Origin: a virus
Direction: 5' to 3' (one strand)
Virus record (IMG/VR): IMGVR_UViG_3300037321_000085
Span: 1 to 38,820 of that record
DNA: 38,820 nucleotides
This document shows, one piece after another, positions 11,008 to 36,942 of the stretch. The notes under the pieces are model-generated. The model was not told the DNA's origin and searched no databases. It was given only the letters and a program-made list of their open reading frames with translations. The first letter of the stretch is position 1, and every line of letters begins with the position of its first letter. A program made the position numbers and the translations under genes.

Positions 11008-11095
11008 AGGTGCCCCAATACCAAAGCCCAAACAGGGCCACGCCGACAAGCAGCGCCAGGATGCGGACTATGGTCTTCTGGCGCTCGGGCGTCAT
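11000..11095 (-). CDS. 31-residue single-pass membrane peptide
   Basis: The ATG at 11095 overlaps the stop of the upstream gene (TGATG) and the frame ends at TAA 11000, overlapping the next start by eight bases. The sequence is a charged N terminus (MTPERQK) followed by one transmembrane helix (ILALLVGVALFGLWYWG). The tight fit on both sides supports a real gene. Position at the head of the late operon beside another membrane protein suggests a lysis or membrane role. Confidence 0.55.
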   Translation of the reverse strand: MTPERQKTIVRILALLVGVALFGLWYWGTYG

Positions 11096-12227: not shown

Positions 12228-12237
12228 GGGTCTCTCC

Positions 12238-12281
12238 AAAAAAGCCCCAGCCGGTCGAGGGATTTGGGCACCGGCTGGGGG
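12238..12281 (-). terminator. Intrinsic terminator (minus strand)
   Basis: A perfect 11-bp stem, CCCCAGCCGGT (12245-12255) with ACCGGCTGGGG (12270-12280), encloses a 14-base loop. On the minus strand it is followed by CTTTTTT (to 12238). It ends the early leftward operon after the 12332-12874 gene and lies immediately before the ribosome-binding site of the zinc-ribbon gene. Confidence 0.85.
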
Positions 12282-12331
12282 AGGAACTGCGACTGAAGGA
12301 CGTGGGCCGCAGCGTTCAGTGGGACGCGGCT

Positions 12332-12874
12332 CTACTCAGCCGCTCCGTTTCGGTGGATGTGATCGGGTTCAGTGTCGGGCTGCTCGTCCGGTTCAGGTTT
12401 GACCGCCCAGTTTTCGCCCGATGCCCATGTATCTCCTGGGTGGGTTTGGGTGATGGTGGTTGAGTGTGTCGCAAACCGCATTGGATCTGGGTAAGGCACA
12501 TCATCGCCAGCGGTTTCTTGTCCGTCCTCAACACAGTCGTCTTCAGGTACAGGCCAGCTTGTGTCGCGCGGTTCTGGCGTCCATGCGTCTGGGGCTGCCG
12601 TATGATAAAACGCGGTATTGAATACCCCTCCTGCGCTCTCAGGAGCCGCCACAGGCGCGCTTTGCTCTGGCCGGGCCTCCGGTGACATAAATGCCAACAG
12701 CGCGTCTCTGGCTACCTGCAAACGATATTCACGGGCATTTATCCGCTCGATCAAATCCTCCCGGTCAGATTCCAGTTCTCTCAGGCGCTGGAGGTCGTCG
12801 GCATGGTTGCCCAGATTCAGGTCGTCGTTTGCGGCAGTAACCTCTGCTGCGAGCTGTTCGAGTGTGTCTTTCAT
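12332..12874 (-). CDS. Coiled-coil hypothetical protein
   Basis: This is 180 residues with AAGGAAC before ATG 12874. Residues 1-60 form a charged coiled coil (DDLQRLRELESDREDLIERI). The rest is a disordered, acidic Pro/Thr/Glu-rich tail (EPDEQPDTEPDHIHRNGAAE). It is the last gene before the strong terminator. I recognise no family. An accessory in replication or transcription is possible from its neighbours, but nothing in the sequence shows it. Confidence 0.6.
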   Translation of the reverse strand: MKDTLEQLAAEVTAANDDLNLGNHADDLQRLRELESDREDLIERINAREYRLQVARDALLAFMSPEARPEQSAPVAAPESAGGVFNTAFYHTAAPDAWTPEPRDTSWPVPEDDCVEDGQETAGDDVPYPDPMRFATHSTTITQTHPGDTWASGENWAVKPEPDEQPDTEPDHIHRNGAAE

Positions 12875-12888
12875 GGTGGTTCCTTTCG

Positions 12889-13281
12889 TTAGGCTGCTTG
12901 GTTGGATCGGTGTTCAGATTCGATTTCGTTGATCATGTCCTGAAGTTCGCACTGTCGCTTGCGGAGCCAGAACAATAGCCCAGGTGGCGACAGGCCGAGT
13001 TCGCGAGCGGCTGACGACCGGGACCGGCCCGCAATGTCCGACAGCGCGACCGTGCGCAGGCGATAGTCTGCCTCGTCTCCCGATAGTTCGCTTTGATTGC
13101 GACCGTCGAGGAGGGCGCGGTAAAGTTCCGGCCACATCTGAAGCCATTTCCACACTGCAGCAGTCGAGACGCCCTCAGCGCGCGCGAAGTCGCTGATGTT
13201 GCCGCCTGCCTCAGCGATGGCCCAGCCGCGAACACGGCGGTCGCGGTGGCCTGCGTGTCCAAGTGCGGGGTAATGGGTCAT
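12889..13281 (-). CDS. Double helix-turn-helix DNA-binding protein
   Basis: This is 130 residues from ATG 13281, overlapping the upstream stop (ATGA). It has a first HTH (ISDFARAEGVSTAAVWKWLQ) and a second (SRSSAARELGLSPPGLLFWL), followed by a C-terminal helix (RKRQCELQDMINEIESEH) that could dimerise. The fold resembles homeodomain-like or terminase-small-type DNA binders, but it lies far from terL. A transcriptional regulator of the early-to-late switch is a reasonable guess. Confidence 0.6.
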   Translation of the reverse strand: MTHYPALGHAGHRDRRVRGWAIAEAGGNISDFARAEGVSTAAVWKWLQMWPELYRALLDGRNQSELSGDEADYRLRTVALSDIAGRSRSSAARELGLSPPGLLFWLRKRQCELQDMINEIESEHRSNQAA

Positions 13282-13637
13282 GCGACGCTGCTCCACTTGC
13301 CAGACAGCGGACGGGTCGCCTCGTAGTGGGCCTTGCATTTGCCCATCGTGTAGCCGTCGATCTGGTGCTTCTTCGCGCCGCAGGGTTTGAGTCCCTTCGG
13401 GGTCTGGACCCAGTGAGTGCAGGTTTTCGATGGTGGGGGCTGGTTGCCTTTCCAGTGCGAAATCATCGGAGCCGAGGCGTGATAGTCCGGCATCGCCATG
13501 CGTTCACGCTTCTGGCGGATCGCGCTGGAAACACGCCGCCCGGAGTCGAGACCTAGCGCCTCTGCAATGTCGCGGGGCCTCATGCCCTGCTCGTGGAGGA
13601 CCATGATTTTTGCGAGTTGTCCGGTGTGACGGGTCAT
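13278..13637 (-). CDS. HTH protein with Cys-rich C terminus
   Basis: The product is 119 residues. The N terminus is a helix-turn-helix (LHEQGMRPRDIAEALGLDSG followed by RRVSSAIRQKRERM), similar to GcrA/sigma-region-4-like HTHs. The C-terminal half contains CTHWVQTPKGLKPCG and later MGKCKAHYEAT, a Cys/Cys/Cys/His set that may bind zinc. It overlaps the primase gene and the next HTH gene by four bases each. Likely a DNA-binding regulator; the target is unknown. Confidence 0.55.
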   Translation of the reverse strand: MTRHTGQLAKIMVLHEQGMRPRDIAEALGLDSGRRVSSAIRQKRERMAMPDYHASAPMISHWKGNQPPPSKTCTHWVQTPKGLKPCGAKKHQIDGYTMGKCKAHYEATRPLSGKWSSVA

Positions 13638-14593
13638 GACGCGCTCCCATTCACTGGACGGGCCAAAAGCAGCGCATCATTCCAATCGGTTCCAATGCGG
13701 TCAGGGATCAGGACAGCGGTATTCATGCCCTTGATCGCCAGCTTGTTTGCCAGCCGATAGGCCGCAGCCTGACCAGTGAAGTTGGCGTCATTGTCAGCAA
13801 AAACTGTGACCTCATCGCACCCCTCTGGAGGCGTCCACTTCTCCAGCATGGTCGCATTGATCGCCGCCCATACCGGCAGGTCATACAGCCGTGACGCGCT
13901 CATAGCGGTCTCAATGCCCTCCGCAATCCCAAGCGCACCACCATTCCAGTCACTCAGGCGAACCGCAGAGCCATCAGGGATGCACCCCGGCATAAGTTTG
14001 CGAGGCGCAGCCATGCGGGCTTTGGCGCTTCCGTCTGGCATCAAAAACGTACGATGAAGCGTGACGTTTTTGCCCTCTGCATCCTGGATCGTTGCCACGA
14101 TCGCGGGCCGGACACCGCCCTCACCATCACGCAGGCTGGCTGCAAACCGTAGCGAGCGGTGGTAAACACGCTCTGACAAGCCTCGGGTGGCGAAATACAC
14201 ATCCCCAATTGAACCCGGTTCCAGTTTTGTGGTCAGGGCTGCAACACCCCGCAGCGCGCTCAATCGCTCGGCATCCGTCATCGCAGGTTTCACCTCGTCC
14301 TGATCAAATTTCTTGTTGCCCAACAGCGAATCAATCTCAGACGCCACCTCAACAAATGGCCTGCCAGTGAACCGCATCGCCAGATCCATGCCCCGGCCTG
14401 CACCGCATTGATTGCAGATATAGCTGCCTGAGCCTTCCTGATTATCAAATCGGAATCGGTCCTGGCCCTCGCACATAGGGCAAGGCCCGTGGCGGTTTGC
14501 GAGTGATTTTCCGGGAACCCCCAAACTCATCAGGATGCCGCGCCATTGACCTTTGGCCGCGTCAGTCGTTCGTTCGTGATGTTGTGTGTTCAT
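13634..14593 (-). CDS. DNA primase, P4-type zinc finger plus TOPRIM
   Basis: The product is 319 residues. A zinc-binding primase domain has Cys 38, 41, 60 and 63 (CPMCEGQDRFRF and YICNQCG). The TOPRIM domain shows GIAEGIETAMSA (about 222-233) and VTVFADND (about 263-270), the acidic metal-binding residues expected of Toprim_3. It makes RNA primers for lagging-strand synthesis. It lies directly after the SF2 helicase, and no fused helicase domain is present, so the two separate genes probably act together. Confidence 0.88.
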   Translation of the reverse strand: MNTQHHERTTDAAKGQWRGILMSLGVPGKSLANRHGPCPMCEGQDRFRFDNQEGSGSYICNQCGAGRGMDLAMRFTGRPFVEVASEIDSLLGNKKFDQDEVKPAMTDAERLSALRGVAALTTKLEPGSIGDVYFATRGLSERVYHRSLRFAASLRDGEGGVRPAIVATIQDAEGKNVTLHRTFLMPDGSAKARMAAPRKLMPGCIPDGSAVRLSDWNGGALGIAEGIETAMSASRLYDLPVWAAINATMLEKWTPPEGCDEVTVFADNDANFTGQAAAYRLANKLAIKGMNTAVLIPDRIGTDWNDALLLARPVNGSAS

Positions 14594-14616
14594 TTTGTGC
14601 TGCCCTTAGTTTGATA

Positions 14617-16128
14617 CTACTGCATTTTCTGTTGTTTTGCCATACGTTTTGCGTACCGGATGCGTGATGATTTTTCGTAATTCCAGAACGCCGCATCGGG
14701 ATATTTCCGGAAGTGGGTGAGGCCCTGCGGCCAGACGCCAAACTTGCCTTTGTAAAGCCCCTTCGCCAGCTTCCCGCCCTTGGCCCGGTCGTCATCCAGC
14801 CAAAGCGCCATTGACCAGAACTCCTGCTTCTCAGCCATCGTGTGGGTGCGCTTCTTACCAATCTCCACCAGTTCGCCGTCCACGTTTTCAATGCCGGGTA
14901 TCGGTTTACGCTCATGCCCACATGCCGGGCAGATCAGGCCGAGGAACAGCACTTCGCAGACGGAGCAAGGCTTTGGCAGTTTCTCGGTCGCCTTAGCTGG
15001 CTGCTTCTCATTTGCTGGTGTTTCGTCCAGCTCTGCATGGTGGATGTCAGTGACCAGGCCAAGGCGAAGCGAGTTGCCTGCATGATCCAGAATAACGCAA
15101 TCTTCGGTTCCAGGATTAACCCGCAATCCCCTCCCGATTTTCTGGCAGTGCAACATCTCAGATCGAGTAGGAGCGGCATCGATGATACAGCTAACAGGCC
15201 AGTCTATGCCGGTTGTCATGGTCCTGACTGAGCAAACAATCTTCACCGAACCAGACCTAAACCGGCGCTCGATCAGCCTGCGCTCAACACTGTCAACCTG
15301 GTGGTCAACGTGCTCAGCCGAGATGCCAGCGCGCTCGAACTGCTCTCGCAACACCTGCGAATGAGCGATGTTGACCGCAAAGCACAGCGTCGGGCGGTTC
15401 TCGCCGCGCTCCAGCCATGTGCCAACAACAGAACCTACAATCGCGGGTTTGCTCATTTCGCGCTCTAGATCGCCTTCAGCATAATCACCCCGCACAGTTT
15501 TGACGGTGCTCAGATCCGGATTCGATGGCGCGTAAGCGACGAACTTCGACAGGGTGCCAGCGTCAATCAGTTCAGTTAACGTGGATCCGATTTGCAGGTC
15601 ATCCCACAGCAGCCCCATGCCTTTCGCCCAAGGCGTTGCAGACAGGCCGATGAACCTAGCCTCAGGCCAAAGCTCCATCATTTTCGGGATAACCTTGGAG
15701 TTGATGTGGCATTCGTCGATTATCACGAGAGCCGGTGGCGTTTGGCGAAGCAGTCGCTTGTCCAAGGATTGAACGGATGCGATTTGCACGGGCGCTGTCC
15801 AATCGGTGCGCGGGTGCGTGGCCTGAATGACGCCGATGTGCTTGATTTCCTCACGCTCAAACTGCTCAATCGTTTGATCGATCAAGGCGATGCGTGGGAC
15901 CGTGAACATCACAGACGAACCCCTGGCCAAGGCCGCTTCAATGATTTTCGCCGCAATGAAGCTCTTGCCTGCGCCAGTTGGCAGCATCAACACAACGCGA
16001 CGCTTGCCCGCAAGGAACGCTTGCCTGACTGACTGGATCGCCTTCGCCTGATAATCTCTTGCTACGCGCTTCTCCGAAGAAAGAGCCTGACCAGGGAAAA
16101 GGTTATGGATTGTTGCAGTGTTAGACAT
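14617..16128 (-). CDS. SF2 DEAD/DEAH-family helicase
   Basis: The product is 503 residues. Motifs: Walker A LPTGAGKS (49-56), DECH (138-141), SATPW (163-167) and motif VI QKIGRGLRVNPG (329-340). An added zinc ribbon follows at Cys 388, 391, 400 and 403 (CSVCEVLFLGLICPAC). The overall plan is UvrB/RecQ-like SSL2-type, common in phage replication modules. It overlaps the upstream initiator-like gene by eight bases and precedes the primase, so it is the likely replicative or branch-processing helicase. Confidence 0.9.
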   Translation of the reverse strand: MSNTATIHNLFPGQALSSEKRVARDYQAKAIQSVRQAFLAGKRRVVLMLPTGAGKSFIAAKIIEAALARGSSVMFTVPRIALIDQTIEQFEREEIKHIGVIQATHPRTDWTAPVQIASVQSLDKRLLRQTPPALVIIDECHINSKVIPKMMELWPEARFIGLSATPWAKGMGLLWDDLQIGSTLTELIDAGTLSKFVAYAPSNPDLSTVKTVRGDYAEGDLEREMSKPAIVGSVVGTWLERGENRPTLCFAVNIAHSQVLREQFERAGISAEHVDHQVDSVERRLIERRFRSGSVKIVCSVRTMTTGIDWPVSCIIDAAPTRSEMLHCQKIGRGLRVNPGTEDCVILDHAGNSLRLGLVTDIHHAELDETPANEKQPAKATEKLPKPCSVCEVLFLGLICPACGHERKPIPGIENVDGELVEIGKKRTHTMAEKQEFWSMALWLDDDRAKGGKLAKGLYKGKFGVWPQGLTHFRKYPDAAFWNYEKSSRIRYAKRMAKQQKMQ

Positions 16129-16753
16129 TGCCAGCCCCCCGAACAGGGAACGGCAGTATCACAATTTCTTTCTGGAAAGGTCTTTGGGCCTCTCCACCCT
16201 CACGGGTTTCAGGCTCTTGTGACGATACGTTCAAACGGGTTTTCTTAAGAAGTCTCTCACGTTGAAGCATACATATAGACCGTGGATCATTTTGATCCGG
16301 TTTAGGAATTTTGCGAACCGGATCATTTTTCGCTGAAATCCTATTCATATCAATAGCTTGCAGCGAAAACTCTATTTCGCCTTTTATCAGGCGTGGATTG
16401 CCACCCGATAGCGACAAAAGGAAGCCGTCGAGGGTCATCAGGATCGTGCTTATATCGACCGTCCAGCGCGTCGCATTCCGCCCGCCCTTGGCGTATTTCA
16501 CAGCCTCGATGAATTGCATTTCAGTGAACTTTGACAGCGCGCGTGTGACGGTTGGAATGCTGCACTGGCACTTCTTGGCAATCGCCTTGCGACCGGGCCT
16601 GATGACGCCTGAATTGTTCCTGTGGTGATACCAGAGCGCAGTTAGGTGTGTGAGAATATCGCGCTCAGTGCGGGTCAGGCCCGCGCCCTTGCGGATGCAA
16701 TTGCGTGTTGCTCGCCGTATTGCGTACTCGTTCGATTGTTTGAAATCGTTCAT
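16121..16753 (-). CDS. Winged-helix replication-initiator-like protein
   Basis: This is 210 residues from ATG 16753; the GTG at 16768 is disfavoured because ATG 16753 is coupled to a leader peptide. A winged helix-turn-helix occupies about residues 25-95 (LTRTERDILTHLTALWYHHR, GRKAIAKKCQCSIPTVTRAL). The C-terminal half is basic and disordered. Size, architecture and position right before helicase and primase match origin-binding O-type proteins. No iterons are obvious inside the gene by eye, so the role is inferred. Confidence 0.65.
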   Translation of the reverse strand: MNDFKQSNEYAIRRATRNCIRKGAGLTRTERDILTHLTALWYHHRNNSGVIRPGRKAIAKKCQCSIPTVTRALSKFTEMQFIEAVKYAKGGRNATRWTVDISTILMTLDGFLLSLSGGNPRLIKGEIEFSLQAIDMNRISAKNDPVRKIPKPDQNDPRSICMLQRERLLKKTRLNVSSQEPETREGGEAQRPFQKEIVILPFPVRGAGNV

Positions 16754-16812
16754 GACGCCACACCACACTTAGTGTTGCAGTGTCCAGTAAAACTGGTGTA
16801 TGGTTTAATCAT
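16750..16812 (-). CDS. 20-residue leader peptide
   Basis: ATG 16812 has a strong ribosome-binding site (AGGAG, eight bases upstream) and the frame ends in TGA overlapping the next ATG (TCATGAAC). The encoded peptide contains CNTKC and has no known domain. The downstream initiator-like gene has no clear Shine-Dalgarno of its own, so the peptide probably loads ribosomes for it by coupling. Attenuation by stalling is conceivable but not shown. Confidence 0.55.
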   Translation of the reverse strand: MIKPYTSFTGHCNTKCGVAS

Positions 16813-16844
16813 GTAGCTTGCTCCTCCAGAGAGCGGTTGCATAA

Positions 16845-16877
16845 GGGCGGCTTGAGGTCTGAAACACCTCGCCGCCC
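16845..16877. other. Stable hairpin between DpdA-like and replication genes
   Basis: GGGCGGC (16845-16851) and GAGGT (16854-16858) pair with ACCTC (16866-16870) and GCCGCCC (16871-16877), with a two-base bulge and a seven-base loop. On the plus strand it is followed by GCCTTTTCTT, so it could terminate antisense transcripts. On the minus strand, where the genes lie, it has no U-tract, and may instead limit read-through or protect the 3' end. Confidence 0.45.
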
Positions 16878-16903
16878 GCCTTTTCTTGCACGTATCAGGG
16901 GAA

Positions 16904-17659
16904 CTAGCAAGCCTTCAGCCCTACCATCTGGTGATGGATTTCCGCCAGTGTCCGCCCGTATTCGCCCCCATACATGTCCAGTTGCTCGACTTCGACAATC
17001 CAACGCGGTGGAGGCTGTATAGCGTCCCAGCGATCCGCCATTTTGCGAGGGGTGTTCTGCGCACGGTTATGGTTCTGCGCGATGTCGGTGCTGTCCACGC
17101 TGGCGAATGGGTAAGGCCCGGAACTGAGCTGCATTCCTCGGAGCATGTGAACCCAAGGCGTTTTCTGATGGCGCGCTGATATGGCGTCCCATGTGGCGTC
17201 CATTTGGCGCGACCATGCAGGCGACTTTATCCGCCAATATTCCTCGGTTGATCCGATGCAGACGCGCGGCCATTCATCCAGCAGGCGCAGCATCCGGTCG
17301 ATTGGTTCGTCCATATGCCAGACGGGTGCGCCGCGATGACCATGCGGCCATTCTCGAATTAGCGCGTCCTGCTCTTGTGAACCCGCCTTGATCACATCTG
17401 GAATGACTGCCCACGTGGTCGGATAATCCAGCCATGTGTCACACCATGCGTAATAGTCCGACCATTCAAACTTAGGCTGGTCCTTGCGGAAGTGACTGAA
17501 CGCTCCGTTATCCAGCATCACTGACTGCGCCTGCTCATGGACGCGCGCGACCTGATCGGGCCGGTAATGGCTGACGCAAAAATGTCGGCCAGCCAGTTCA
17601 TAAAGCGCGCCCATAGGGGTAATTGGAGTGCCGTGGTAATGTATCACGCGCGCCTCCAT
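16904..17659 (-). CDS. dpdA: DpdA/TGT-like transglycosylase (7-deazaguanine DNA modification)
   Basis: The product is 251 residues. The sequence has the phage queuine-tRNA-ribosyltransferase-like (DpdA) pattern: HYHGTPITP and FCVSHYRPD at the start, then VMLDNGAFSHF with Asp 50 in the catalytic-type position, and WAVIPDVI with Asp 88. The segment APVWHMDEPIDRMLRLLDEW fits a TIM-barrel strand and helix, with a later WVHMLRGMQL strand. DpdA enzymes exchange guanine in DNA for a 7-deazaguanine, protecting phage DNA from restriction. Overlap of 16 bases with the QueD-like gene supports a shared pathway. The substrate base cannot be read from sequence. Confidence 0.68.
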   Translation of the reverse strand: MEARVIHYHGTPITPMGALYELAGRHFCVSHYRPDQVARVHEQAQSVMLDNGAFSHFRKDQPKFEWSDYYAWCDTWLDYPTTWAVIPDVIKAGSQEQDALIREWPHGHRGAPVWHMDEPIDRMLRLLDEWPRVCIGSTEEYWRIKSPAWSRQMDATWDAISARHQKTPWVHMLRGMQLSSGPYPFASVDSTDIAQNHNRAQNTPRKMADRWDAIQPPPRWIVEVEQLDMYGGEYGRTLAEIHHQMVGLKAC

Positions 17660-27665: not shown

Positions 27666-28319
27666 TTATACAGTCTCGATCAACCGCCCGTGCATCCAGT
27701 GCATCGCCAGATCCAGCTTGCGTATTTTCAGCTCCCAGAACACGCGGGCCGTTTTGTCGGAGTTCTCAATCGCCATTTCTTTCATGTTCTGCGCTTCCTT
27801 GTAGATCGGCAGGAGGCGAGTGTTGGTCTGCTCGTAAGTCTCGCCAACGCGCAGATATTCTTTCAGCTCTGCTGGAATATCAACCTTCGCCTTGGCGTCT
27901 TCCAGCTTCGCCAGACCAGACATAAGCGCCGCCCGTGCGTGTTCCCTCTCGATGCCGCGCAACCGTTCCAGCTCTGCCAGCGTCTCAGGGCTGTCCTGGT
28001 GCACCACGCGGTCAACCGTCATGGGCTCCGGCGCGGGTTCGCGGATAATCTCCACGCTGCTTATTGGAACCGCTGTGTGCATGAACTGGTCAGTGGTCCC
28101 GTCTGGAAACTGCACAGTGACCTCATAGGACTCGCCTGCGTTCATGTAGAGGTTCACCCGGCCTACGCTATCGGTTGGCGCGGGGTTGCGGGCTGGGGTG
28201 CGTAGATCAGGGTCGTAATAGATCACAGCCGGTGCCCTGCCCTGCCTGAACGCGATAAGCGCGGAGACGGGCCCGGAGTGTCCGATGGCTTGGTAGCGGA
28301 ACAGCGAGGGGGTGTTCAT
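27666..28319 (-). CDS. Hypothetical structural protein
   Basis: The product is 217 residues, coupled to the ejection gene by ATGA. The N-terminal half is beta-rich (SALIAFRQGRAPAVIYYDPD, VNLYMNAGESYEVTVQFPDG), resembling small domains at the base of phage tail fibres. The C-terminal half is helical (LAELERLRGIEREHARAALM, and a final WELKIRKLDLAMHWMHGRLI). It is likely a minor virion component, but there is no decisive motif. Confidence 0.55.
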   Translation of the reverse strand: MNTPSLFRYQAIGHSGPVSALIAFRQGRAPAVIYYDPDLRTPARNPAPTDSVGRVNLYMNAGESYEVTVQFPDGTTDQFMHTAVPISSVEIIREPAPEPMTVDRVVHQDSPETLAELERLRGIEREHARAALMSGLAKLEDAKAKVDIPAELKEYLRVGETYEQTNTRLLPIYKEAQNMKEMAIENSDKTARVFWELKIRKLDLAMHWMHGRLIETV

Positions 28320-31300
28320 CGTGCAGCTTCCTGACGTTCCCGGTTCGTCATGGGCCGGACAAACTGGCCTTGGCTGTTACGCGTCATAGGCGGCGGGCCT
28401 GCCAGTGCATTGGGTACAGGCTTCAGGCTTGGCGGCCTTGCCATTGGCGGGGCCTCATCAAACGGCTCTGCATTTCCAAGTGAAACGTCGATAGCGTAGT
28501 CAAGTGCATCCACACGGTCGATTGCCGCCGTTAGCTCCGCACGGTCGCCCGCTGTTGCGAAAGCGTCTGACGCCTCACGCACGGCCTTTCTGCGGGCATT
28601 TAGCAGGCGCTTGTCCACGCCCTCAAGGTCTGTCTGGCGGGCAGTATCGGATTTCACGAACGCATCAAACTGACGCGCCCGGTTCTGCCACGTTGCGCTG
28701 TCTGGTGCCTTGGCTAGTTCGGACATGACCTTGGATCGGTTCTGCGCAAAGTTCGGCTCGACAGGTCTCGACCCGAGATAGGCAGACACACCACCCGCGC
28801 CGCCAAGTGCTGTCAAAAGCGAAGCGGTGACGACAAAGCCTGGAGGTGGCGGTTCCTTGCCCATCTTGCCGATAGGTCCGACAGCGCGCGCATGGTCCCG
28901 CTCAGGTGCGCTGAGCGAGTCGTAGAACGCCTTGTCGTCTTTGCTGGTGCGCTCACGGGATAGCGTTGGGTCGGGCCGTCCCTGTGCAGGCGGCTCTACT
29001 GTCCGGCGCGGTAGGTCGTCGGGGAGAGCGGGCTTGGCTGGGCCGGGTTCGTTAGTCAGGTCATCCAGTCCGCGTCCGAGGCGCTTGGCTCCGCGCTTGG
29101 GGGTGTTGCCGCTGAAGCCGGCACCGCGAACCGGGCCTTTAGGCGCAAGGGCGTTGGTCATAGCGCTTCCGCGACGCACGACTGCCCCGCCAGCGCGCTT
29201 TGCTGCAATGCCAGACACAAAACCCATCGCGGCATTGGCGTTCTTTTCTTCCGGCGTGTCGCCCTGTGTGTAGCCGTAAGAACTGCCTACAGCGCCTGAT
29301 GCTAGGTCGCTTTTAGCGCCTTCAAATCCAGCATGAGCCGGACCTGTCGTCTTGAGCCTATTCCGAATGACGCCGACGTGCGCAGAACTTTTGCCTGTAC
29401 GCTTAGCAATCTGAGCGTTGCTTAGGCCCTCATTTATCAGCTTTTCCATCTGGACGCGCTCGGGCGTGACGGGACGAATCGCCCTGCCTGCAGGAATGTC
29501 GATGCCCTTGCGACGCAGCTGGCTGATGCGAACCGCAACGGTCTGGGGAAGTTTGCCCATTTCTTCGCCAATTTCGGCGTTAGAATAGCCGTTTTTGGCC
29601 ATCTCAGCGATTTTGTTTTGATCGGCGTTTAGGCGAGGATCAGAGAAAGCATCAGTTCCGCGTTCCAGGTCGTCATTAAAACCTCGTGGTCGTGTGCCAG
29701 TCCAGCCTGCCCCGCGAATAGGACCGCGCAGATATTCTTGATAGGCGTTCCACTCCTCGGCTTCGCCAATGCGGTATGTCTTTTGACCGCCCTGCAGTTC
29801 ATCACCAAGCAGGCGAATAAACTCGTCATCATCCCGCACATCAAACCCAGCTTCCTGCGCATCTCTGCGCAGCATGTCGATTGTCTTGCCATTCTTGTTA
29901 TTAAGGAGTCCGGGCCGAGATCTTACATCGCCAAGCATTTGCGCGACAGTGCCGCGCATGTATCCCCTACCGTCCTGCCCAAACTCTTCACGAATGCCGC
30001 CCTGCTTGCGAATAAATCCAAGCAGCCCTTGCGGCTCTTTAGGAGCAGGACCGGACCATGATGCCTTTTCAGGAACAAACGGTCTGGACGGGGCTGAAGG
30101 CGGAATATCCGGCCCCACTGGCTCCCATCCGTGCAACGTATTACCAGCCGGAGGCGGAGGCGCAGATGTGCTAGGGGCGAGAGCATTCCTCGTGCCGGGA
30201 CCGCCCGGAAGCGGAGCCGCCCCGCCGCCAGAAGGTCCGGCAGGTTGTGGGGGCTGGGTTGCTAATGCGTTAGCTGCGGGGGCTGCTGGCGGAGGCGTAG
30301 GAATACCAGCTCCAGGCTTAACCGCCCCTTTTCCTCCCGACGGGCGGGACATCATGAATTTAGTCAGCGCCTCCAGATCTTTGGTTCCGGGCTTGAATAC
30401 TCCAGCTATCCCTTGGCGCGCAACATTCCCCGCCGTTATCCAACCAAATGGCTGGCCCGACACGGCAGACAGGGCCATATCAGCCATCATGGAACCGGGC
30501 AGTGATGACCCGTCCAGCTTGTTGGCAATCGCACCATTGTAGAGACCGGGAGCATTCGCGCTCGCATCAGCATTTGAGAATGTCGCAGATTGACGAGCAG
30601 GATTGCCGGAATCCACAGCGTTCAAATATGCGTTCTCGTCAGTAATTGCGCGAATATCATCCGCCACAGCCTTGCCCTTTGGGCCAAGCCTTTCAAGCGT
30701 GGCCAGCGTTCCGATATTGTCAATACTGGACGTTCTGGCAGGACTTCCCGGCCTACTACCCTGCATAGGTGAGCGCAGTGCATTCTTGATCGATATGAGC
30801 GCCTCGTCCTGCTCGGCAGGTGACAGCTTTTCAAATTCTTTTATGAACGTGTCCCGGTTTGCAGGATTGCGCGCCGTTGCAATGAACCGATCCCCAAATC
30901 CTGTCGCCGTCCTCAGCCCCTCATTAATCGCGTAATTCTGCCTGATCTGGCCATAGCCAGGAGTTGCCTTTTCGACAGCTCCCGCCAACTCACTGACAAT
31001 TCCCTCATAGTAATTAATAAGCCCCGCGCTTGGTGCTGCCTTCGCTTTCTCTTCCCGCGCCAGTTGCCCCGCTGCCGATTGCATCCAGTGTGCAGCCTGT
31101 CGCGGATCTTTCTGCATGTAATAGGGCAATGCATCTTCAAACGGAACGCCCGCATCCCGCGCAGCCCTGCGAGCAATCTTGGCGGCGTCGCCCATTATTT
31201 TTTTGTCATTACGCCAGAAGTTCATGGATGCCGCAAGATCGTCCAGTGATCCGGGGGGTGGGATACTTGCGCCAGGAGCAAAAATCGCTTTATATTCACC

Positions 31301-32578
31301 AGACAAAGCCTGTTCAGTGGCGTCCAAAACGTCATCAGTTGCCGAACGGCTTCCAGAACCAAGATTGGCGCTAAAGCTATCATCAAGAAAACCGACCTGA
31401 GACCCACGCAAATCCTTGACAGCCTCTCCGACAATAGACGGGCTGGAGTCCTTGGGTTTCGTCGTGTTAGCGCGCTCGCGCATCACCTTAAGAATGTTTG
31501 CACTCGCCTGTGGCTTTCCGATTTCATACAAGACGTCGGAATATACCTGGCCGAGCGTAAGGCGGCCCGCAGCGCCGTCAGGAGCAGCTTTAACGAACTC
31601 TCCAGCCTTTTTGTTGACGAGCACTATGTCTTCAGGGGTAAGACCGGAACTCTTGAGAATACGCTCGGTCAGCTTGAAGGCGGCAGGATCGATGCCACCG
31701 GCAATGTCCATATCAAGGACATCTCCGATACTACGCTCAATATTCCCAGACTTCGGGACGGGACCGCCACCCCTGAAGACTGACTCTTCTACATTCTTGA
31801 GCGTGGCCGTGCCAGTCGCTGCGCCTTTAAGAAGACGTGCGCCAGCAGAAAGACCCGGTCCAAGAAGGTAGTTAGTCGGATTAACCATTGCCTTTCCGAA
31901 CTCGCCAACGACCTCGCCAACAGTGACATCACGGCCCTCCATAAATGCTTGATTAGGCGCCTCAGAAAGTGCGTTAAAGGCGCCCACCTCTGCCGCGACA
32001 ACGGGAGACCCAATGGCTGATCTTGTCCCATAGCGTGTCATTCTGCTGCCCACGCCGGAGCCTTTTGTCATGGCAAGGCCTGCTTTAGTCGCAAGGCTTT
32101 CTGTAGCTTTTGTTACTGTTGCGCTTGGCCCGCCTGCCGGATATGCGAAGCCCATCCCGCGCCCGATCAGCGATGCGGTTGGGTACTGCTCATTACCGGT
32201 TCTTAGCGCATCGTCGCCGTAGTTCTCGTTAACCGTTCCGGCGTAAGCCTCATTGCCCGCTTTTCGCATCTGCCCAAAGGTGGCGATGTTTCCGACGTTG
32301 AAAAGAAGGGCGTCACCTGCGCTGCGAATACCCCCGTCAGGCCGTTTCTGGGCCGTTTCCGACAGGTAGTCATTCAATCCTGGCGACTGTTCGGAATTGA
32401 GACCAGCGCTCATAATATCAACCGGCGTCTTGGGGGCCATGTCTGCGAACGGGATATCGCGCTCATTGACTTGAGGCTTTGGATACCGCTTCGCCATAGC
32501 CTGCTTCATGACAGCAGGGTCTGTGCCGTCAGGGAACTGGTACTTCTGCCCGTCAGGGCCTTGAACGTCGATTGGCAT
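28316..32578 (-). CDS. Giant internal virion/DNA ejection protein with two HTH segments
   Basis: The product is 1420 residues. The N terminus (IDVQGPDGQKYQFPDGTDPA then VMKQAMAKRYPKP) is the short module common on podovirus ejection proteins. A large Ala/Gly helical body follows, then a Pro-rich disordered region (about 760-880). Two HTH repeats lie near residues 979-1010 and 1045-1078 (IAEMAKNGYSNAEIGEEMGK; LINEGLSNAQIAKRTGKSSA). The C terminus has a membrane-like segment (VVTASLLTALGGAGGVSAYL). Four N-A-L-A motifs occur. TAATG couples it to the preceding gene. Confidence 0.75.
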   Translation of the reverse strand: MPIDVQGPDGQKYQFPDGTDPAVMKQAMAKRYPKPQVNERDIPFADMAPKTPVDIMSAGLNSEQSPGLNDYLSETAQKRPDGGIRSAGDALLFNVGNIATFGQMRKAGNEAYAGTVNENYGDDALRTGNEQYPTASLIGRGMGFAYPAGGPSATVTKATESLATKAGLAMTKGSGVGSRMTRYGTRSAIGSPVVAAEVGAFNALSEAPNQAFMEGRDVTVGEVVGEFGKAMVNPTNYLLGPGLSAGARLLKGAATGTATLKNVEESVFRGGGPVPKSGNIERSIGDVLDMDIAGGIDPAAFKLTERILKSSGLTPEDIVLVNKKAGEFVKAAPDGAAGRLTLGQVYSDVLYEIGKPQASANILKVMRERANTTKPKDSSPSIVGEAVKDLRGSQVGFLDDSFSANLGSGSRSATDDVLDATEQALSGEYKAIFAPGASIPPPGSLDDLAASMNFWRNDKKIMGDAAKIARRAARDAGVPFEDALPYYMQKDPRQAAHWMQSAAGQLAREEKAKAAPSAGLINYYEGIVSELAGAVEKATPGYGQIRQNYAINEGLRTATGFGDRFIATARNPANRDTFIKEFEKLSPAEQDEALISIKNALRSPMQGSRPGSPARTSSIDNIGTLATLERLGPKGKAVADDIRAITDENAYLNAVDSGNPARQSATFSNADASANAPGLYNGAIANKLDGSSLPGSMMADMALSAVSGQPFGWITAGNVARQGIAGVFKPGTKDLEALTKFMMSRPSGGKGAVKPGAGIPTPPPAAPAANALATQPPQPAGPSGGGAAPLPGGPGTRNALAPSTSAPPPPAGNTLHGWEPVGPDIPPSAPSRPFVPEKASWSGPAPKEPQGLLGFIRKQGGIREEFGQDGRGYMRGTVAQMLGDVRSRPGLLNNKNGKTIDMLRRDAQEAGFDVRDDDEFIRLLGDELQGGQKTYRIGEAEEWNAYQEYLRGPIRGAGWTGTRPRGFNDDLERGTDAFSDPRLNADQNKIAEMAKNGYSNAEIGEEMGKLPQTVAVRISQLRRKGIDIPAGRAIRPVTPERVQMEKLINEGLSNAQIAKRTGKSSAHVGVIRNRLKTTGPAHAGFEGAKSDLASGAVGSSYGYTQGDTPEEKNANAAMGFVSGIAAKRAGGAVVRRGSAMTNALAPKGPVRGAGFSGNTPKRGAKRLGRGLDDLTNEPGPAKPALPDDLPRRTVEPPAQGRPDPTLSRERTSKDDKAFYDSLSAPERDHARAVGPIGKMGKEPPPPGFVVTASLLTALGGAGGVSAYLGSRPVEPNFAQNRSKVMSELAKAPDSATWQNRARQFDAFVKSDTARQTDLEGVDKRLLNARRKAVREASDAFATAGDRAELTAAIDRVDALDYAIDVSLGNAEPFDEAPPMARPPSLKPVPNALAGPPPMTRNSQGQFVRPMTNRERQEAAR

Positions 32579-33927
32579 TAGTCAAAGTCACCCGTGGCTG
32601 GATTGAATACGAGAGGCGGTGCGTCAGGGCCTTGTGTGCCATATGTTCCGGAGGCCTTCGCTATCGCCCTTGCCGAAGCAGCTCTTTTGATGACGATAAG
32701 GTCGTCAATTGCCTTCGCTGCGGTCTCGACCCTGATGCCCTGGGATGTCAGGATCGTCATGGCCTGCGTGGCTTTCTCGCCTTCGATCTGAGTAATTTGA
32801 CCTCCGCCCTTAAGGCTCTCAAAGGCGTCAAGGAATGCCTGACCCCCCATCTGGTTGATGAGCGCCTGCGTGTCCGCCATATCAGTGCCAGGAATAGCCG
32901 GAATAACCGACGCAATACCATAACGACTATCAAAGCCGGGGCTATCCCTAAGCGCCTCAAGTGTTGATATGCCTATGTTCCACTTGGACATGGCTTCCGG
33001 CAGTCCTTGCTCTGCCTCTACACGCGCAGCCTCGTTGGCCTTGCTAGTTTCGACAGTCGCTGCATTATAGCCGACTTCTTCTGGTGACATGAGAGGAGTG
33101 GCGGTGCCTGCGCGTGGATCAAATGCACCCCTGACGCCGCCGCCCATGTCGATGATGCCATAATTGTTGCGAACCTTGATGTCGGTTACGACCTTTTTTC
33201 CACCTCTGGTCAGATAGCCGAGGTATCCATCTTCAGTAACAAACTGCCCCTGAACATTTTCAGACTTCTCCTGACCTGCCCGGTCCGCAGCTAGATCGCG
33301 GCCCTGCTTGTATTCCTGCTCAGCATCGTAGCGCTGGCCTTCGATCCGCTGCGCGGGCGTCAGAAGCTGCTGCTGGAACTGCTTCAGCTCCGCATTCGTC
33401 AGCTTGCCGTCTGCAATTGCCGACTGCACAGCATTGACAACGTTCGTATCCTGGCCATACGGGCTGTCCATAATGATCCGCATGGCTTCATCTGCGCGCC
33501 TCGGATCATTTTCATCCATCATCATGAGCTGGTCGACATTCGACACAAGGTAATCAATGCCGGAGTTCTGGTCAGTGATTTCGTCCGCCTTCATCGCGCG
33601 GTTATGGCCGTAGAGCGCCATGCCGGTATCGATCTCACCTGCGCCGAATGCCTGAGCCGTTGCGCCCTTGAAGTCACCCGATGCAAGCGCGTTACCAATG
33701 CCCTGCTTCAGCGCCTTGGACTTCGCAGCTTCTGCCTGCGGCCTGACATAATCCATCATAGCCAGATCGCCGCGTGAGGCCGCATAGGCCATAGCGCTTT
33801 CATAATCGCCGCTCGCCACCATCGGGGCCAAAGCGTTAGCCGTCTGCTTGTTGCGGATAGCTCCGCCCATCTGTTCGCCGGAAGCGAAGGCGCTCATGGA
33901 TTGTCTTGGGTCGAAAAATGTTGGCAT
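32578..33927 (-). CDS. Internal virion/DNA ejection protein
   Basis: The product is 449 residues and mostly helical and acidic. The C-terminal third has YGIASVIPAIPGTDMADTQA, LINQMGGQAFLDAFESLKGG and GQITQIEGEKATQAMT, a conserved domain seen in many podovirus internal proteins. N-A-L-A motifs occur at 31 and 79. The GGAG ribosome-binding site lies within the 9-bp target duplication of the adjacent mobile element. It sits between two other ejection proteins, as in the gp7/gp20/gp16 cluster of P22. Confidence 0.7.
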   Translation of the reverse strand: MPTFFDPRQSMSAFASGEQMGGAIRNKQTANALAPMVASGDYESAMAYAASRGDLAMMDYVRPQAEAAKSKALKQGIGNALASGDFKGATAQAFGAGEIDTGMALYGHNRAMKADEITDQNSGIDYLVSNVDQLMMMDENDPRRADEAMRIIMDSPYGQDTNVVNAVQSAIADGKLTNAELKQFQQQLLTPAQRIEGQRYDAEQEYKQGRDLAADRAGQEKSENVQGQFVTEDGYLGYLTRGGKKVVTDIKVRNNYGIIDMGGGVRGAFDPRAGTATPLMSPEEVGYNAATVETSKANEAARVEAEQGLPEAMSKWNIGISTLEALRDSPGFDSRYGIASVIPAIPGTDMADTQALINQMGGQAFLDAFESLKGGGQITQIEGEKATQAMTILTSQGIRVETAAKAIDDLIVIKRAASARAIAKASGTYGTQGPDAPPLVFNPATGDFD

Positions 33928-33943
33928 AGTTCAGACTCCATAC

Positions 33944-34145
33944 GAGTTATTGTCAAATCTGGTGTTTGAGAGTTTTTGGTCATGCGGCAATCTGGCCAGT
34001 TTCGGTGGTTTCGATCCCGTCTTTGAATTTGACGCCGGTAATGACTTTGGCGAGGTAGTCAAAGCCGCGTAGTTTTCGCCAGTTTTGTTCAGCGCATTGG
34101 CCCAGCTTGAACATACCGCCCAAACACCAGATTCAGTCATAATCC
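33944..34145 (-). mobile_element. 202-bp deletion derivative (MITE-like) of an IS256-family element
   Basis: 25-base terminal inverted repeats lie at 33944-33968 and 34121-34145. The inner 13 bases (AATCTGGTGTTTG) are identical, and 17 of 25 match overall by my count. Identical 9-bp flanking direct repeats ACTCCATAC are at 33935-33943 and 34146-34154, within the usual 8-9 bp IS256 target duplication. Inside is the last 44 codons of an IS256 transposase. The 5' part of the transposase is deleted, so it could move only with a helper. Confidence 0.85.
33980..34114 (-). pseudogene. IS256-family transposase, C-terminal fragment
   Basis: Forty-four codons ending in TGA at 33980. CAEQNWRKLRGFDYLAKVI followed by TGVKFKDGIE is the C-terminal signature of Transposase_mut/IS256 proteins (W-R-x-L-x-G, then V-I-x-G-V-x-F-x-D-G). 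All catalytic DDE residues lie upstream and are missing. The ATG at 34114 is internal to the original gene. A different frame over the same DNA (34140-33931) is open for 69 codons but is a chance frame. Confidence 0.8.
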
Positions 34146-35317
34146 ACTCCATACATAGGATTAAAGGTTCCGCCACTTCCGCCACTTCCGCCACTTCCGC
34201 CACCCCAACCCTTATACCCGCCATACATGCCAACCCCGCCCATCAGTGCATTGCCGACGCCCTGAGCGCCCTGGTTCCACGCGTTCGCTTGGTTCATGTA
34301 GCCATTGGCCTGCGCGTTGCCTGCATTCATCAGGGCATTCGATGCGACGTTGGCGTAGTTCTGGCCTGCGCCCTGCATCTGGGCTGCTGCGCCCATGCCA
34401 AGATTTGCGAGGTTGAAGTTGTTGTTCACGCTCTGCTGATAGCCCTGGTCAGCAACGCCCATTGATCGGTCTTGCAGGGCTGTCATGGCTGAACCAGACA
34501 GCAGCTTGCCCCGGCTGGCGAAGCTGTTCTCGATCGCGCGCCTGCCCTCGTCCTGCATGAACTGGTAGCCCGGCGTTTGGCGCAGGCTTTGGGTCATTGG
34601 CCCTTCCGTTGGCCCGGTCTGCAACGCGGGTTCACCGGCAGGGGCTTGCGTCATTGGCCCTTCCGTTGGCCCGGTCTCAAGCGCTGGTGTTCCGCTCGGT
34701 CCCTGCTGCGATGCGCCATCCTGTCCGACCTGTACAGCCGGTCCAACCTGGCCTGTCGTTTGTGCGAGTGCGTTGGCTTGCGGCTGGTATTGCGGGAGCT
34801 GGCGGCCCTCCTTTTTGCCGTATGTGTTGTAATGGTATTCAGCCGCCTTGTTCATATCCCCGCCGAACTTGGACAGCGCCTTCCGATTTCTCTGAAAATA
34901 CGATTTCACATCAGGGTTTGCGTCAAGGTAGCCCTGCCAGTTGTTTCCGCTCTGAGGTGCCGCCTGCCCGATCGGTGCCTGCCCATAAGTACCGCTGGCA
35001 TAGTTTGGCTGGCCGCCTGTCTGCTGTTGTGGCGCTAGCGCGTTCGGCTGACCACCACCGCCGCCGCCCTTGCCGAGCAGGTCCATCACGCCGGACTCAC
35101 CGTAGAGGCCCTGTAGGCCCGCCTGGTAATAGGGCTGCTGCAGGCCGCGCTGGTCGTAGTAGATTTCCTTTTGGAGAGCGAGGGACTGGTCTGACGCCTG
35201 CCCCTGCGCCTCAGCAGCCTTCTTCGCGGCTTTGCTTTGCTTGCTGGCACCGGCAAGCGCCGCGCCACCGCCCAGAATAGCTGCCCCCAGAATTGCGGTT
35301 CCTGTTGCAATGGCCAT
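34133..35317 (-). CDS. Internal virion/DNA ejection protein (Gly/Gln/Ala-rich)
   Basis: The product is 394 residues. A hydrophobic N terminus (TAILGAAILGGGAALAGASK) could insert in membrane during ejection. A small domain (YLDANPDVKSYFQRNR, HYNTYGKKEGRQ) and long Gln/Gly/Asn-rich helices follow (MQGAGQNYANVASNALMNAG). N-A-L-A occurs at 92 and 182. The C terminus is a Gly-Gly-Ser repeat, and the last three residues (DYD) and the stop come from the inserted element. The ATG overlaps the GNAT stop (TAATG). Confidence 0.7.
   Translation of the reverse strand: MAIATGTAILGAAILGGGAALAGASKQSKAAKKAAEAQGQASDQSLALQKEIYYDQRGLQQPYYQAGLQGLYGESGVMDLLGKGGGGGGQPNALAPQQQTGGQPNYASGTYGQAPIGQAAPQSGNNWQGYLDANPDVKSYFQRNRKALSKFGGDMNKAAEYHYNTYGKKEGRQLPQYQPQANALAQTTGQVGPAVQVGQDGASQQGPSGTPALETGPTEGPMTQAPAGEPALQTGPTEGPMTQSLRQTPGYQFMQDEGRRAIENSFASRGKLLSGSAMTALQDRSMGVADQGYQQSVNNNFNLANLGMGAAAQMQGAGQNYANVASNALMNAGNAQANGYMNQANAWNQGAQGVGNALMGGVGMYGGYKGWGGGSGGSGGSGGTFNPMYGVDYD
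34170..34205. repeat. 9-bp tandem repeat (CCGCCACTT)
   Basis: Three exact copies and one diverged copy of CCGCCACTT. They encode Gly-Gly-Ser units near the C terminus of the 394-residue ejection protein, a likely flexible linker that could vary in length by slippage. Confidence 0.8.
34593..34677. repeat. 28-bp direct repeat, period 57 bp
   Basis: Bases 34593-34620 recur exactly at 34650-34677. They encode two copies of a 19-residue unit beginning A-L-(E/Q)-TGPTEGPMTQ in the 394-residue ejection protein, an in-frame internal duplication in a disordered region. Confidence 0.85.
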
Positions 35318-35739
35318 TAGGTAATTTCCTTCATCAGTGCAGTTTCTGTGGCATCGTATCCAACCGTGCGGAACAGGCGGCGGACAGCCTTTTCGCGGTC
35401 ATCAGCGATGCAGCTCATCTGGATCGCGCTGGCCCCGTGGTCTTTGGCCCAGCTTTCAAACGCTTCCCGCAAAGCGGTGCCGTCATGGTCGGCAAACCAG
35501 AAAAACTCCTGCGCAATGCGGAAGTCGTGGTTGAAGTACATCGGGAAGATCAGACCACCGCAGAATCCGCCGTCCGAGACAAACACTGCCGCTTCGTCAG
35601 ATTGCAGCAGGTTCGTCACCGTCGCGCGCCAGTCCGGCTCATTGATCGGCACCCGCTTGCACCACGGGCTGTAGGCATGGAACTTGCGGCCCCATTCCAG
35701 CACGTCTTCGATGTCGTCCATTGTGGCTTGGCGGATCAT
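35317..35739 (-). CDS. GNAT-family N-acetyltransferase
   Basis: This is 140 residues from ATG 35739, with AGGAGG upstream. It shows the GNAT order: MIRQATMDDIEDVLEWGRKF at the N terminus, AAVFVSDGGFCGGLIFPMYF as beta strands 2-4, then AIQMSCIADDREKAVRRLFR and TVGYDATETALMKEI at the end. Small GNAT proteins are frequent in podovirus late operons near ejection genes. Possible targets are a virion or host protein. It is coupled to the neighbours by ATGA and TAATG. Confidence 0.8.
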   Translation of the reverse strand: MIRQATMDDIEDVLEWGRKFHAYSPWCKRVPINEPDWRATVTNLLQSDEAAVFVSDGGFCGGLIFPMYFNHDFRIAQEFFWFADHDGTALREAFESWAKDHGASAIQMSCIADDREKAVRRLFRTVGYDATETALMKEIT

Positions 35740-36119
35740 TGACCCCTCCTGCAAAACTCGTTCTGGCGCTCAGTCACGACCTGTCGGCACATTTTCAGGA
35801 ACTGGGGGCCATGCGGCTTGATATTTTCGCCGTATTTCCTCCATGCGAGGATGTGCGCGACTTCATGCTCGGTCTGCGGTTTCAGGTCTGCGCCAACCGC
35901 ATCCTGGTTGATCAGTATCCATTCCCCGCCTTCAGGGTCTCGTGCTGCCAGTGCGTTGCGGGTCTGCCCGCCTTGGATCATGAACTTGTTCGTCTTCGGC
36001 ACATACTGGACGATGACGCCGTTTTCCTGCTCCATACGATTCATGGCGTTGTCCACAACTTCTTCCATCGTGATCTGCGGGACCGGCTGCTGCATCATGG
36101 CGAGGGCGTTGATCATCAC
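35736..36119 (-). CDS. SprT-like zinc metallopeptidase
   Basis: The product is 127 residues. The metallopeptidase motif HEVAHILAWRKYG has zinc ligands His 85 and 89 with Glu 86, and KPHGPQF supplies a third His at 103, the SprT/Spartan pattern HExxH then HGPxF. Two N-A-L-A motifs are present, one at residue 4 and one at 55, each followed by a flexible stretch. It lies just after the serine protease and an unknown gene and before the GNAT and ejection genes. It may cleave virion proteins, itself included. Confidence 0.75.
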   Translation of the reverse strand: MMINALAMMQQPVPQITMEEVVDNAMNRMEQENGVIVQYVPKTNKFMIQGGQTRNALAARDPEGGEWILINQDAVGADLKPQTEHEVAHILAWRKYGENIKPHGPQFLKMCRQVVTERQNEFCRRGQ

Positions 36120-36136: not shown

Positions 36137-36451
36137 TCATTCCGGAACCACTGGGTCCGCCGGATCTACGGGAATCAGTTCCGAGGCCCGAAGACCTATG
36201 AGCGTGGTCGCCTCACCTGCGAGGCCATGCCAGCCACCCGATGCAATCAGGTAGGCTGATCCAAGCAGTAGCGACAGCCCGGCCTGAGATAGCTCATCTA
36301 CCGAGCGCAGCGCTCTGAATGTATCGACGCAGGACACGACAATCGATGCCTGTTCCTGTGCGCCATAAATCGCCTCGGCCTGATCTGCGTCAGGCTCATA
36401 GGCCAGCAGCGCGTCTCGAAACGCGGGAATAGAATTTGGGTAGGTTATCAC
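36137..36451 (-). CDS. Hypothetical protein
   Basis: The product is 104 residues, coupled to the serine protease gene by ATGA. It is helical with an acidic N-terminal half (FRDALLAYEPDADQAEAIYG), a hydrophobic centre (GLSLLLGSAYLIASGGWHGL) and a Pro-rich end (PVDPADPVVPE). Its place between two proteases suggests a partner, inhibitor or substrate. No motif is recognised. Confidence 0.55.
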   Translation of the reverse strand: MITYPNSIPAFRDALLAYEPDADQAEAIYGAQEQASIVVSCVDTFRALRSVDELSQAGLSLLLGSAYLIASGGWHGLAGEATTLIGLRASELIPVDPADPVVPE

Positions 36452-36942
36452 TTTTCTTCCATCTGCTTTCTAATTGCCTCTGTCGGCTGAACGAAGACGG
36501 GCTTAAATCCGTCCGGTCGCTCAGGTCCGACGCTTAAAATTATCCCGACGACTTCTCCGTCATCAACGCTCATCGCTGGGCCTCCGCTGTATCCAGGGCC
36601 AACACCCCTTGCCATAATGACGAGAAGGCCATCGCTAGAACCCCCTCCGCGAGAGGGAATGCTCTGGCCCGTTAGGACGACAACGCCGCGCTGAGCTTCG
36701 CCCTCCTTGCCGTCTGGGTATCCCACAAGAAATACGTTATCACCTATACCGGCCTCCCTTGTTGGCGGTATAAATCCGCTAGAAATGACGACAATATCCA
36801 GCTTAGAAAAACCGTCGGCATCGCCGCACTCTCCGGCCAAGTGAGCGGCGGAAACCCACGCGCTACCAAGGCGCGTCTTGGCTCCTATTTTGTTTCCGCA
36901 TTCTATGCGCTCATAAATTGGGGGGATGTCGACCGCTGGCAT
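36448..36942 (-). CDS. Chymotrypsin-fold serine protease
   Basis: This is 164 residues from ATG 36942, preceded by AAAAGGTGA. The triad is visible: His 34 in WVSAAHLAG, Asp 49 in KLDIVVI and Ser 119 in GPGYSGGP. The Ser sits in the GxSGGP signature, but residue 118 is Tyr where most family members have Asp. No Asp lies six residues before the Ser, so trypsin specificity is unlikely and small or hydrophobic P1 residues are more plausible. The spacing His-Asp is short, giving a compact fold. It is three bases from the fibre gene stop. Confidence 0.8.
   Translation of the reverse strand: MPAVDIPPIYERIECGNKIGAKTRLGSAWVSAAHLAGECGDADGFSKLDIVVISSGFIPPTREAGIGDNVFLVGYPDGKEGEAQRGVVVLTGQSIPSRGGGSSDGLLVIMARGVGPGYSGGPAMSVDDGEVVGIILSVGPERPDGFKPVFVQPTEAIRKQMEEK

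Follow-up and report, generated by a model that had tools for sequence, protein, structure and literature searches.

A short peptide motif varies in concert across the predicted ejection proteins of a group of P22-type phages

Results

A P22-type ejection operon with a recurrent tetrapeptide

We analyzed the whole of IMG/VR virus record IMGVR_UViG_3300037321_000085 (38,820 bases, hereafter the window) and focused on an operon encoding three predicted ejection proteins, E1, E2 and E3, together with a SprT-like protein. These four proteins share the tetrapeptide NALA, which occurs ten times in frame on the minus strand, four times in E3 and twice each in E2, E1 and the SprT-like protein. In related phages the matching linker sites read NVFA or NAFA, and the change extends across proteins that are not homologous. 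By sequence similarity, the operon is a P22-type ejection set, and the genome around it is podophage-like, its portal, coat and Hc3 proteins being of P22 type. The motif-bearing genes are as follows.

28316..32578, minus strand: E3, open reading frame (ORF) of 1420 residues, large ejection/polyvalent-type protein at the position of P22 gp16, four NALA
32578..33927, minus strand: E2, 449 residues, P22 gp20-like ejection protein (phrog_2534, 'released from the phage upon host infection', E 1.2e-14)
34133..35317, minus strand: E1, 394 residues, P22 gp7-like ejection protein (phrog_598, 'DNA ejection', E 2.7e-25)
35736..36119, minus strand: SprT-like zinc-metallopeptidase family protein, two NALA (PF10263, 6.5e-6)

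P22 gp7 and gp20 are annotated with the same product names as the families of E1 and E2, and the gene order E1-E2-E3, in the window and its relatives, is the P22 order 7-20-16 downstream of the head closure gene Hc3. The SprT-like protein retains HEVAH, an HExxH-type zinc site, and a conserved downstream HGP. All four proteins are predicted to travel inside the head and to enter the host by ejection.

A sequence-only reading of this DNA had reported ten NALA copies in four proteins, and all ten are present as it stated. The copies, named by protein and residue, and one degenerate copy are listed here.

28400..28411, minus strand: NALA E3-1390, PVPNALAGPPP, C-terminal region
29144..29155, minus strand: NALA E3-1142, MTNALAPKGPVRGAG
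30176..30187, minus strand: NALA E3-798, TRNALAPSTSAPP, aligned to TENVFAPTSAKP of relative L009
30260..30271, minus strand: NALA E3-770, PAANALATQPP, with L009 PANVFAGGQQ aligned nearby
33682..33693, minus strand: NALA E2-79, GNALASGDF, in a low-confidence predicted helix (55-83) and probably part of a helical repeat
33826..33837, minus strand: NALA E2-31, TANALAPMVASGDY (predicted helix 7-38, low confidence)
33883..33894, minus strand: SAFA E2-12, degenerate copy; relatives have NAFA/NVFA at the aligned site
34763..34774, minus strand: NALA E1-182, QPQANALAQTTGQ
35033..35044, minus strand: NALA E1-92, GQPNALAPQQQ
35946..35957, minus strand: NALA SprT-55, TRNALAARD, within the SprT region
36099..36110, minus strand: NALA SprT-4, MINALAMMQQ

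Composition predicts 0.134 copies in the 2390 residues of these proteins (the earlier estimate was roughly 0.1), and a first-order Markov model predicts 0.56; ten are observed. A Poisson model gives a probability of 5e-16, which becomes 7e-11 once multiplied by 160,000 tetrapeptides, and none of 300 shuffles had more than five copies of any tetrapeptide with three or more different residues. NALA is absent from all other predicted proteins of the window (40 proteins, 11,104 residues). The recurrence of NALA is confirmed as real and is not due to chance.

The copies are also independent at the DNA level. All ten 12-nucleotide spellings are distinct, as the sequence-only reading had stated. About 192 spellings are possible, and ten distinct ones are therefore unremarkable alone. 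The flanking DNA of the copies is 29% identical on average and 43% at most, which excludes recent duplication or conversion. The earlier claim that DNA repeats could not account for the motif is thus borne out by spellings and flanks together, and its suggestion of selection on the peptide is supported.

Related phages carry different tetrapeptides at the same sites

Searches of named phages with E1 and E3, a first scan of a genome collection, and viral-contig scans with E3, the window's chymotrypsin-like protease or SprT as single queries returned no relative. Deeper alignments yielded further loci, including contigs in metagenome-assembled genomes (MAGs) of Pseudooceanicola and Henriciella. 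The relatives represent few lineages, are mostly fragments and carry mechanical gene calls. SprT homologues lie at the same locus in L003, L009, L010, L012, L017 and L021, and E3 is homologous to a 1212-residue protein of L009 across 704 and 489 residues.

In L002, whose E1 is 91% identical, NALA is kept twice in E1, twice in E2 and once in a largely different E3. In five relatives whose E1 is 47-54% identical to that of the window (L003 and L009-L012), there is no NALA at all. We therefore rejected NALA itself as the conserved motif; the conserved entity is N-[AV]-[LF]. Linker sites that match NALA read NVFA or NVFS in L009, L010 and L017, and NAFA or NAFS in L003, L011 and L022.

This correspondence extends across all four proteins. 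At E1-182 the aligned residues are QNVFS (L009), QNVFT (L010) and QNVFA (L017). With wider context, E1 QPQANALAQTTG aligns against ETQ-NVFSQSTG (L009) and QPQNVFTQPQT (L010), and the window's QPQANALAQ against ETQ-NVFSQ and QPQNVFAQ. Near E1-92, relatives have QNVFASG, QNAFADYASG and QNAFSQYASG. At E2-31 the window's TANALAPM is replaced by TQNVFSGM in L003 and TQNAFSQM in L011. Within E3, TRNALAPSTSA aligns with TENVFAPTSA, and the counterparts of E3-770 are PANVFA (L017) and PANAFN (L022). At the E3 C-terminus, the window's KPVPNALA stands against KPTQNVFAR* in L009, NVFARKQ* in L017, NAFQTQ* in L011 and NAFAVVDSR* in L022 (* marks the end of the protein). The SprT proteins of L009 and L010 have PQQNVFAKEA near the N-terminus, and that of L017 has RANVFA and TNVFS; the SprT-55 site reads RANVFARA in L017, ARAL in L003 and NEYARA in L009. 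With SprT counted, L009 has five NVFA copies against 0.015 expected.

Judged from these alignments, each phage uses a single 'dialect' across non-homologous proteins, SprT included. The Pseudooceanicola MAG is associated with NVFA and the Henriciella MAG with NAFA. Among the copies in four phages, codons mostly differ and flanks are unrelated.

The E3 proteins of the window (28316-32578) and L002 (10366-14334) are largely unrelated, in a setting where surrounding genes are about 86-96% identical. The otherwise divergent L002 E3 shares NALAPKGP[VI]RGAG with the window at the E3-1142 site. This pattern suggests, from sequence comparison, that E3 was recently replaced around a retained short segment.

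The motif is enriched in the ejection set, mostly in putative linkers and at termini

We scored all tripeptides of the ejection set against composition and shuffles, with no motif preset, in nine loci and two runs. The top tripeptide was NAL in the window, L002 and L018, NVF in L009, L010 and L017, and NAF in L003, L011 and L022. It exceeded every shuffle in at least one of the two runs in eight of the nine loci (L018 in the first run only). Across the nine ejection sets, N[AVI][LF] occurs 97 times against 17.3 expected (5.6-fold); the remainder of the same sequences has 30 against 33.3 expected (0.90-fold). Of 177 pairs of copies drawn from two different proteins of one phage, 126 agree in dialect, versus 57 when permuted (p<=0.0002, in a test that ignores the tree).

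As an extra check, an E1 profile was used to find ten operons in alphaproteobacterial genomes (distant prophages). They gave 69 motif copies versus 18.5; NAL ranks first in four of the ten, and another three operons are enriched roughly three- to sixfold.

The motif is roughly [PQ]-x-[QAE]-N-[AV]-[LF]-[AS]. Among 28 hand-picked linker copies, Pro is at -2 in 15 and Gln, Ala or Glu at -1 in 21; then come N, A/V and F/L, followed by Ala or Ser in 24. When 12 sequences were scanned, the P/Q-led pattern matched only E1, E2, E3 and one small extra protein. The latter, a 149-residue ORF (L032, 15499-15948), lies upstream of a TerS-like gene in the L010 contig. It reads NALAPPENVFARKD near its start (NALAPPENVFA) and LNALSGLSPFKK at its end (NALSGLSPFKK), and on this sequence evidence it is a candidate further packaged protein.

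Several copies lie at extreme termini. N-terminal examples are MNMNVFSP and MANALS in E2-type proteins and MINALA in the window's SprT; E3 proteins end in NVFAR*, NVFARKQ* or NAFQTQ*. The four NALA copies of the window's E3 lie, by inspection, in Pro/Gly-rich linkers. An AlphaFold2 model of E1, poor overall, places E1-92 and E1-182 in its lowest-confidence coil (predicted local distance difference test, pLDDT, <30), on either side of the only confident domain (residues ~125-175). The earlier placement of many copies in disordered linkers may hold for E1, E3 and several termini but does not fit the E2 copies, which are in predicted helices, or SprT-55 in the SprT region. Pro follows NALA in four of the ten copies, where the sequence-only reading had spoken of many.

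A probable docking motif with one shared partner

We consider it probable that NALA/NVFA/NAFA is a short docking motif, that all copies in one phage bind one shared partner, and that the motif serves as a tag for virion loading or ejectosome assembly. Carried in the flexible linkers and termini of E1, E2, E3 and the SprT-like protein, the tag would load these proteins onto a common internal virion structure or keep them joined within the ejectosome, SprT being accessory cargo that bears the same tag. A change of the partner's binding site in a lineage would then move the copies in unrelated proteins together to NALA, NVFA or NAFA. If all copies bound a single partner whose pocket had changed in each lineage, unrelated proteins would be expected to vary together while keeping codons of their own, as they do. 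We favor a loading or assembly tag because the copies are found in just those proteins that should be internal and ejected, together with small accessory ones.

Several observations weigh against this interpretation. The top tripeptide of L003 alone is not significant. The phages are related, and the dialect thus reflects a few lineage events. Three of the ten alphaproteobacterial operons show little or no enrichment, as do eight named P22-like phages including P22 itself, whose ejection proteins have three N[AVI][LF] copies versus 2.3 expected; the motif is therefore confined to part of the phage group. AlphaFold2 models of E1 and E2 are poor, with mean pLDDT values of 40 and 45, and the linkers are therefore recognized mainly by their composition; fold could account for both E2 copies and for SprT-55. 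No partner was found. Scaffolds of L009 and L010, which share a dialect, are not detectably similar, whereas those of L010 and L011, which differ in dialect, are 49% identical.

Where might the partner lie? Head proteins were rejected, since dialect does not track coat-protein type: the L009 coat protein is related to that of the window, L010 and L017 share another, and all three phages are NVF. Hc3 and E1 do track the dialect groups. We therefore favor a partner encoded with the tail/ejection module (E1, E2 or the Hc3 tail hub), or a host factor, over the coat protein. The scaffold is a possible docking partner. The three P22 ejection proteins enter the procapsid independently, need scaffold and have their own binding sites with no known common signal (PMC8402733), and it has been proposed that they dock at the inner end of the scaffold column (PMC12005531). 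No short segment common to the scaffolds of same-dialect phages was seen.

More tentatively, the lineage dialect could be a general loading code in P22-like phages of alphaproteobacteria. Any protein that gained the tag, including SprT or the 149-residue protein, would then be packaged and ejected, and dialect would bar cross-loading between phages.

Other explanations of the motif

An unlikely alternative, though the best of those we considered, is that once ejected the proteins use the motif to bind a host factor, an envelope or cytoplasmic protein, and that dialect tracks the host and not the virion. Its appeal lies in the independence of dialect from head type, in the presence of NVFA in relatives from a Pseudooceanicola MAG and of NAFA in those from a Henriciella MAG, two different alphaproteobacteria, and in the position of the L009 and L010 SprT motif after a hydrophobic, signal-like N-terminus. 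Host assignments, however, number only two and both rest on MAG contigs, and up to ten copies per genome resemble multivalent assembly more than host targeting.

We regard it as improbable that NAL/NAF merely reflects protein fold, recurring because these proteins contain Ala-rich helical repeats. The E2 copies do lie in predicted helices beside GDYxxA-type turns. The E2-79 context NALASGDFKGA may be compared with NALAQGDYGA (GNALAQGDYGA) in a neighboring protein of L004-L006, GDxNAL and NALAxGD-like elements occur in distant loci, and the C-terminal NALM/NAF sites of E1 are conserved helix positions. Yet Pro/Gln/Gly-rich linkers hold the majority of the copies in E1, in E3 and at the N-terminus of SprT, the other proteins of the same genomes are not enriched (0.90), and fold leaves unexplained why AL switches to VF jointly in linkers of unrelated proteins. 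E2-31, E2-79 and SprT-55 may nonetheless be structural and ordinary; the strong motif set is the seven remaining copies, two in E1, four in E3 and one at the SprT N-terminus.

Slightly less probable still is a processing site, at which a phage or host protease would cut NALA/NVFA as the ejection proteins mature or are ejected. The sequence-only reading had proposed cleavage or docking, and had pointed to two phage proteases, one of them the chymotrypsin-fold protease encoded upstream.

36448..36942, minus strand: chymotrypsin-fold (Trypsin_2) protease with a GYSGGP active-site motif, no NALA (PF13365, E 2.1e-7)

There is precedent for processing in the host protease OpdA, which removes 20 N-terminal residues of P22 gp7 (by annotation; PMC8402733). 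A protease pocket could likewise force concerted variation of the P site, and SprT, a protease-family protein, lies in the same operon in seven loci. Against this, the chymotrypsin-like protease is confined to the window, since tblastn against 15 other sequences gave nothing at E<=0.01, and from this distribution we judge it a recent acquisition that is not part of the motif system. SprT was not found in L002, L011, L018 or L022. The expected co-occurrence of motif and protease genes fails: L002 (five NALA copies) and L011 and L022 (NAFA-type motifs) have a clear motif with neither protease found on their contigs, which are fragments (18.7 kb for L002). SprT bears the motif itself, even inside its own domain. 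Copies one to six residues from the C-terminus (NVFAR*, NVFARKQ*, NAFQTQ*) or N-terminus (MNMNVFS, MANALS, MINALA) would be pointless as cleavage sites, as cutting there would free almost nothing. Cleavage by the window's two proteases is not supported, and a cut by a host enzyme, of the kind OpdA makes in gp7, is of low probability. The docking half of the proposal gains from the concerted N-[AV]-[LF]-[AST] variants at the same sites. A signal-peptidase AxA site was also dropped; most copies have no hydrophobic stretch upstream and Pro is often at +1.

Pro-rich linkers duplicate easily, but chance with linker duplication is already refuted, for practical purposes, by the corrected Poisson probability, the ten spellings with their dissimilar flanks, and the recurrence of the motif in independent lineages.

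Other features of the operon

The middle of E3 is, by its domain content, a variable effector slot. The window's E3 has tandem helix-turn-helix (HTH) domains there (HTH_38/HTH_23, residues 985-1081), as does L009, whereas L017 E3 (9712-13086) has an ART-PolyVal ADP-ribosyltransferase (ART) domain at residues 832-948, between motif copies.

A further segment of E3, KRLGRGLDDLTNE at residues ~1160-1180 of the window's protein, has two counterparts at residues ~988-1040 of L009 E3 (13510-17148), RRLGRGLDDLMRD and SRLGRGLDDLMQD. These segments closely resemble the ParB N-terminus NRGLGRGLSALMADVG of the Pseudooceanicola MAG that holds L021, a locus near-identical to L009. A ParB box of this kind activates ParA. 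The E3 segment may be an injected mimic of a chromosome-partition signal.

The E1 central domain (34790-34945 of the window, residues 125-175) has the pattern YLxANPDV...HY..G..EGR, also present in E1 of L010, L011, L017 and L022. In several relatives this domain contains an EF-hand-like DxDGDGxI loop, a sequence feature that suggests calcium binding by an ejection protein.

The SprT proteins of L009 (9242-9640) and L003 (8467-8817) begin with hydrophobic, signal-like N-termini, MRHWRLIPLLLVSIA and MMRALLAALLLCG, which the window's SprT lacks. One further gene lies between SprT and E1; its type also occurs upstream of E1 in L009 and L017.

35317..35754, minus strand: GNAT-type acetyltransferase gene (phrog_1249), directly upstream of E1, no NALA

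Discussion

Peptides that change in concert in non-homologous proteins form a clear case here, and the same signature could reveal docking motifs in other phages. Within the P22-related group, a shared, lineage-matched motif would give a concrete molecular answer to the missing procapsid-entry signal of P22, and a route to its receptor. If this is true, packaged and injected accessory proteins would be predictable from sequence, and chosen cargo could be loaded. In a literature search that did not cover subscription journals, we found no paper pairing ejection proteins with a short linear motif, nor any report of this motif.

A close known parallel is the capsid targeting sequence (CTS) of phage T4, a short peptide common to differing internal, ejected proteins. 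As cited in PMC8402733, the N-terminal ten residues of T4 IPIII suffice to direct fusion proteins into the head. The CTS is N-terminal and processed in head maturation, according to the title of Mullaney and Black 1996 (ref. 56 of PMC8402733). The window's motif differs: it belongs to a P22-type phage, is mostly internal and also C-terminal, repeats up to ten times, and shows no sign of cleavage or of an N-terminal peptide removed as the head matures.

P22 gp7, gp20 and gp16 match the window in gene order, in the families of E1 (phrog_598) and E2 (phrog_2534) and in the position of E3. The window's E3 is larger than gp16 and has HTH domains, and P22 ejection proteins lack motif enrichment. Proteolytic maturation of an ejection protein, as in gp7 and OpdA, would be a further common trait; gp7 has a single N-terminal site at 20 residues, whereas the window has many sites, several at extreme termini.

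Polyvalent proteins (Iyer et al. 2017, PMC5512222) are likewise large, multidomain and injected, with metallopeptidase, ART or DNA-binding domains; that paper does not mention SprT, a short motif or a linear motif. In the window, unlike in polyvalent proteins, the tag sits also on small, stand-alone proteins.

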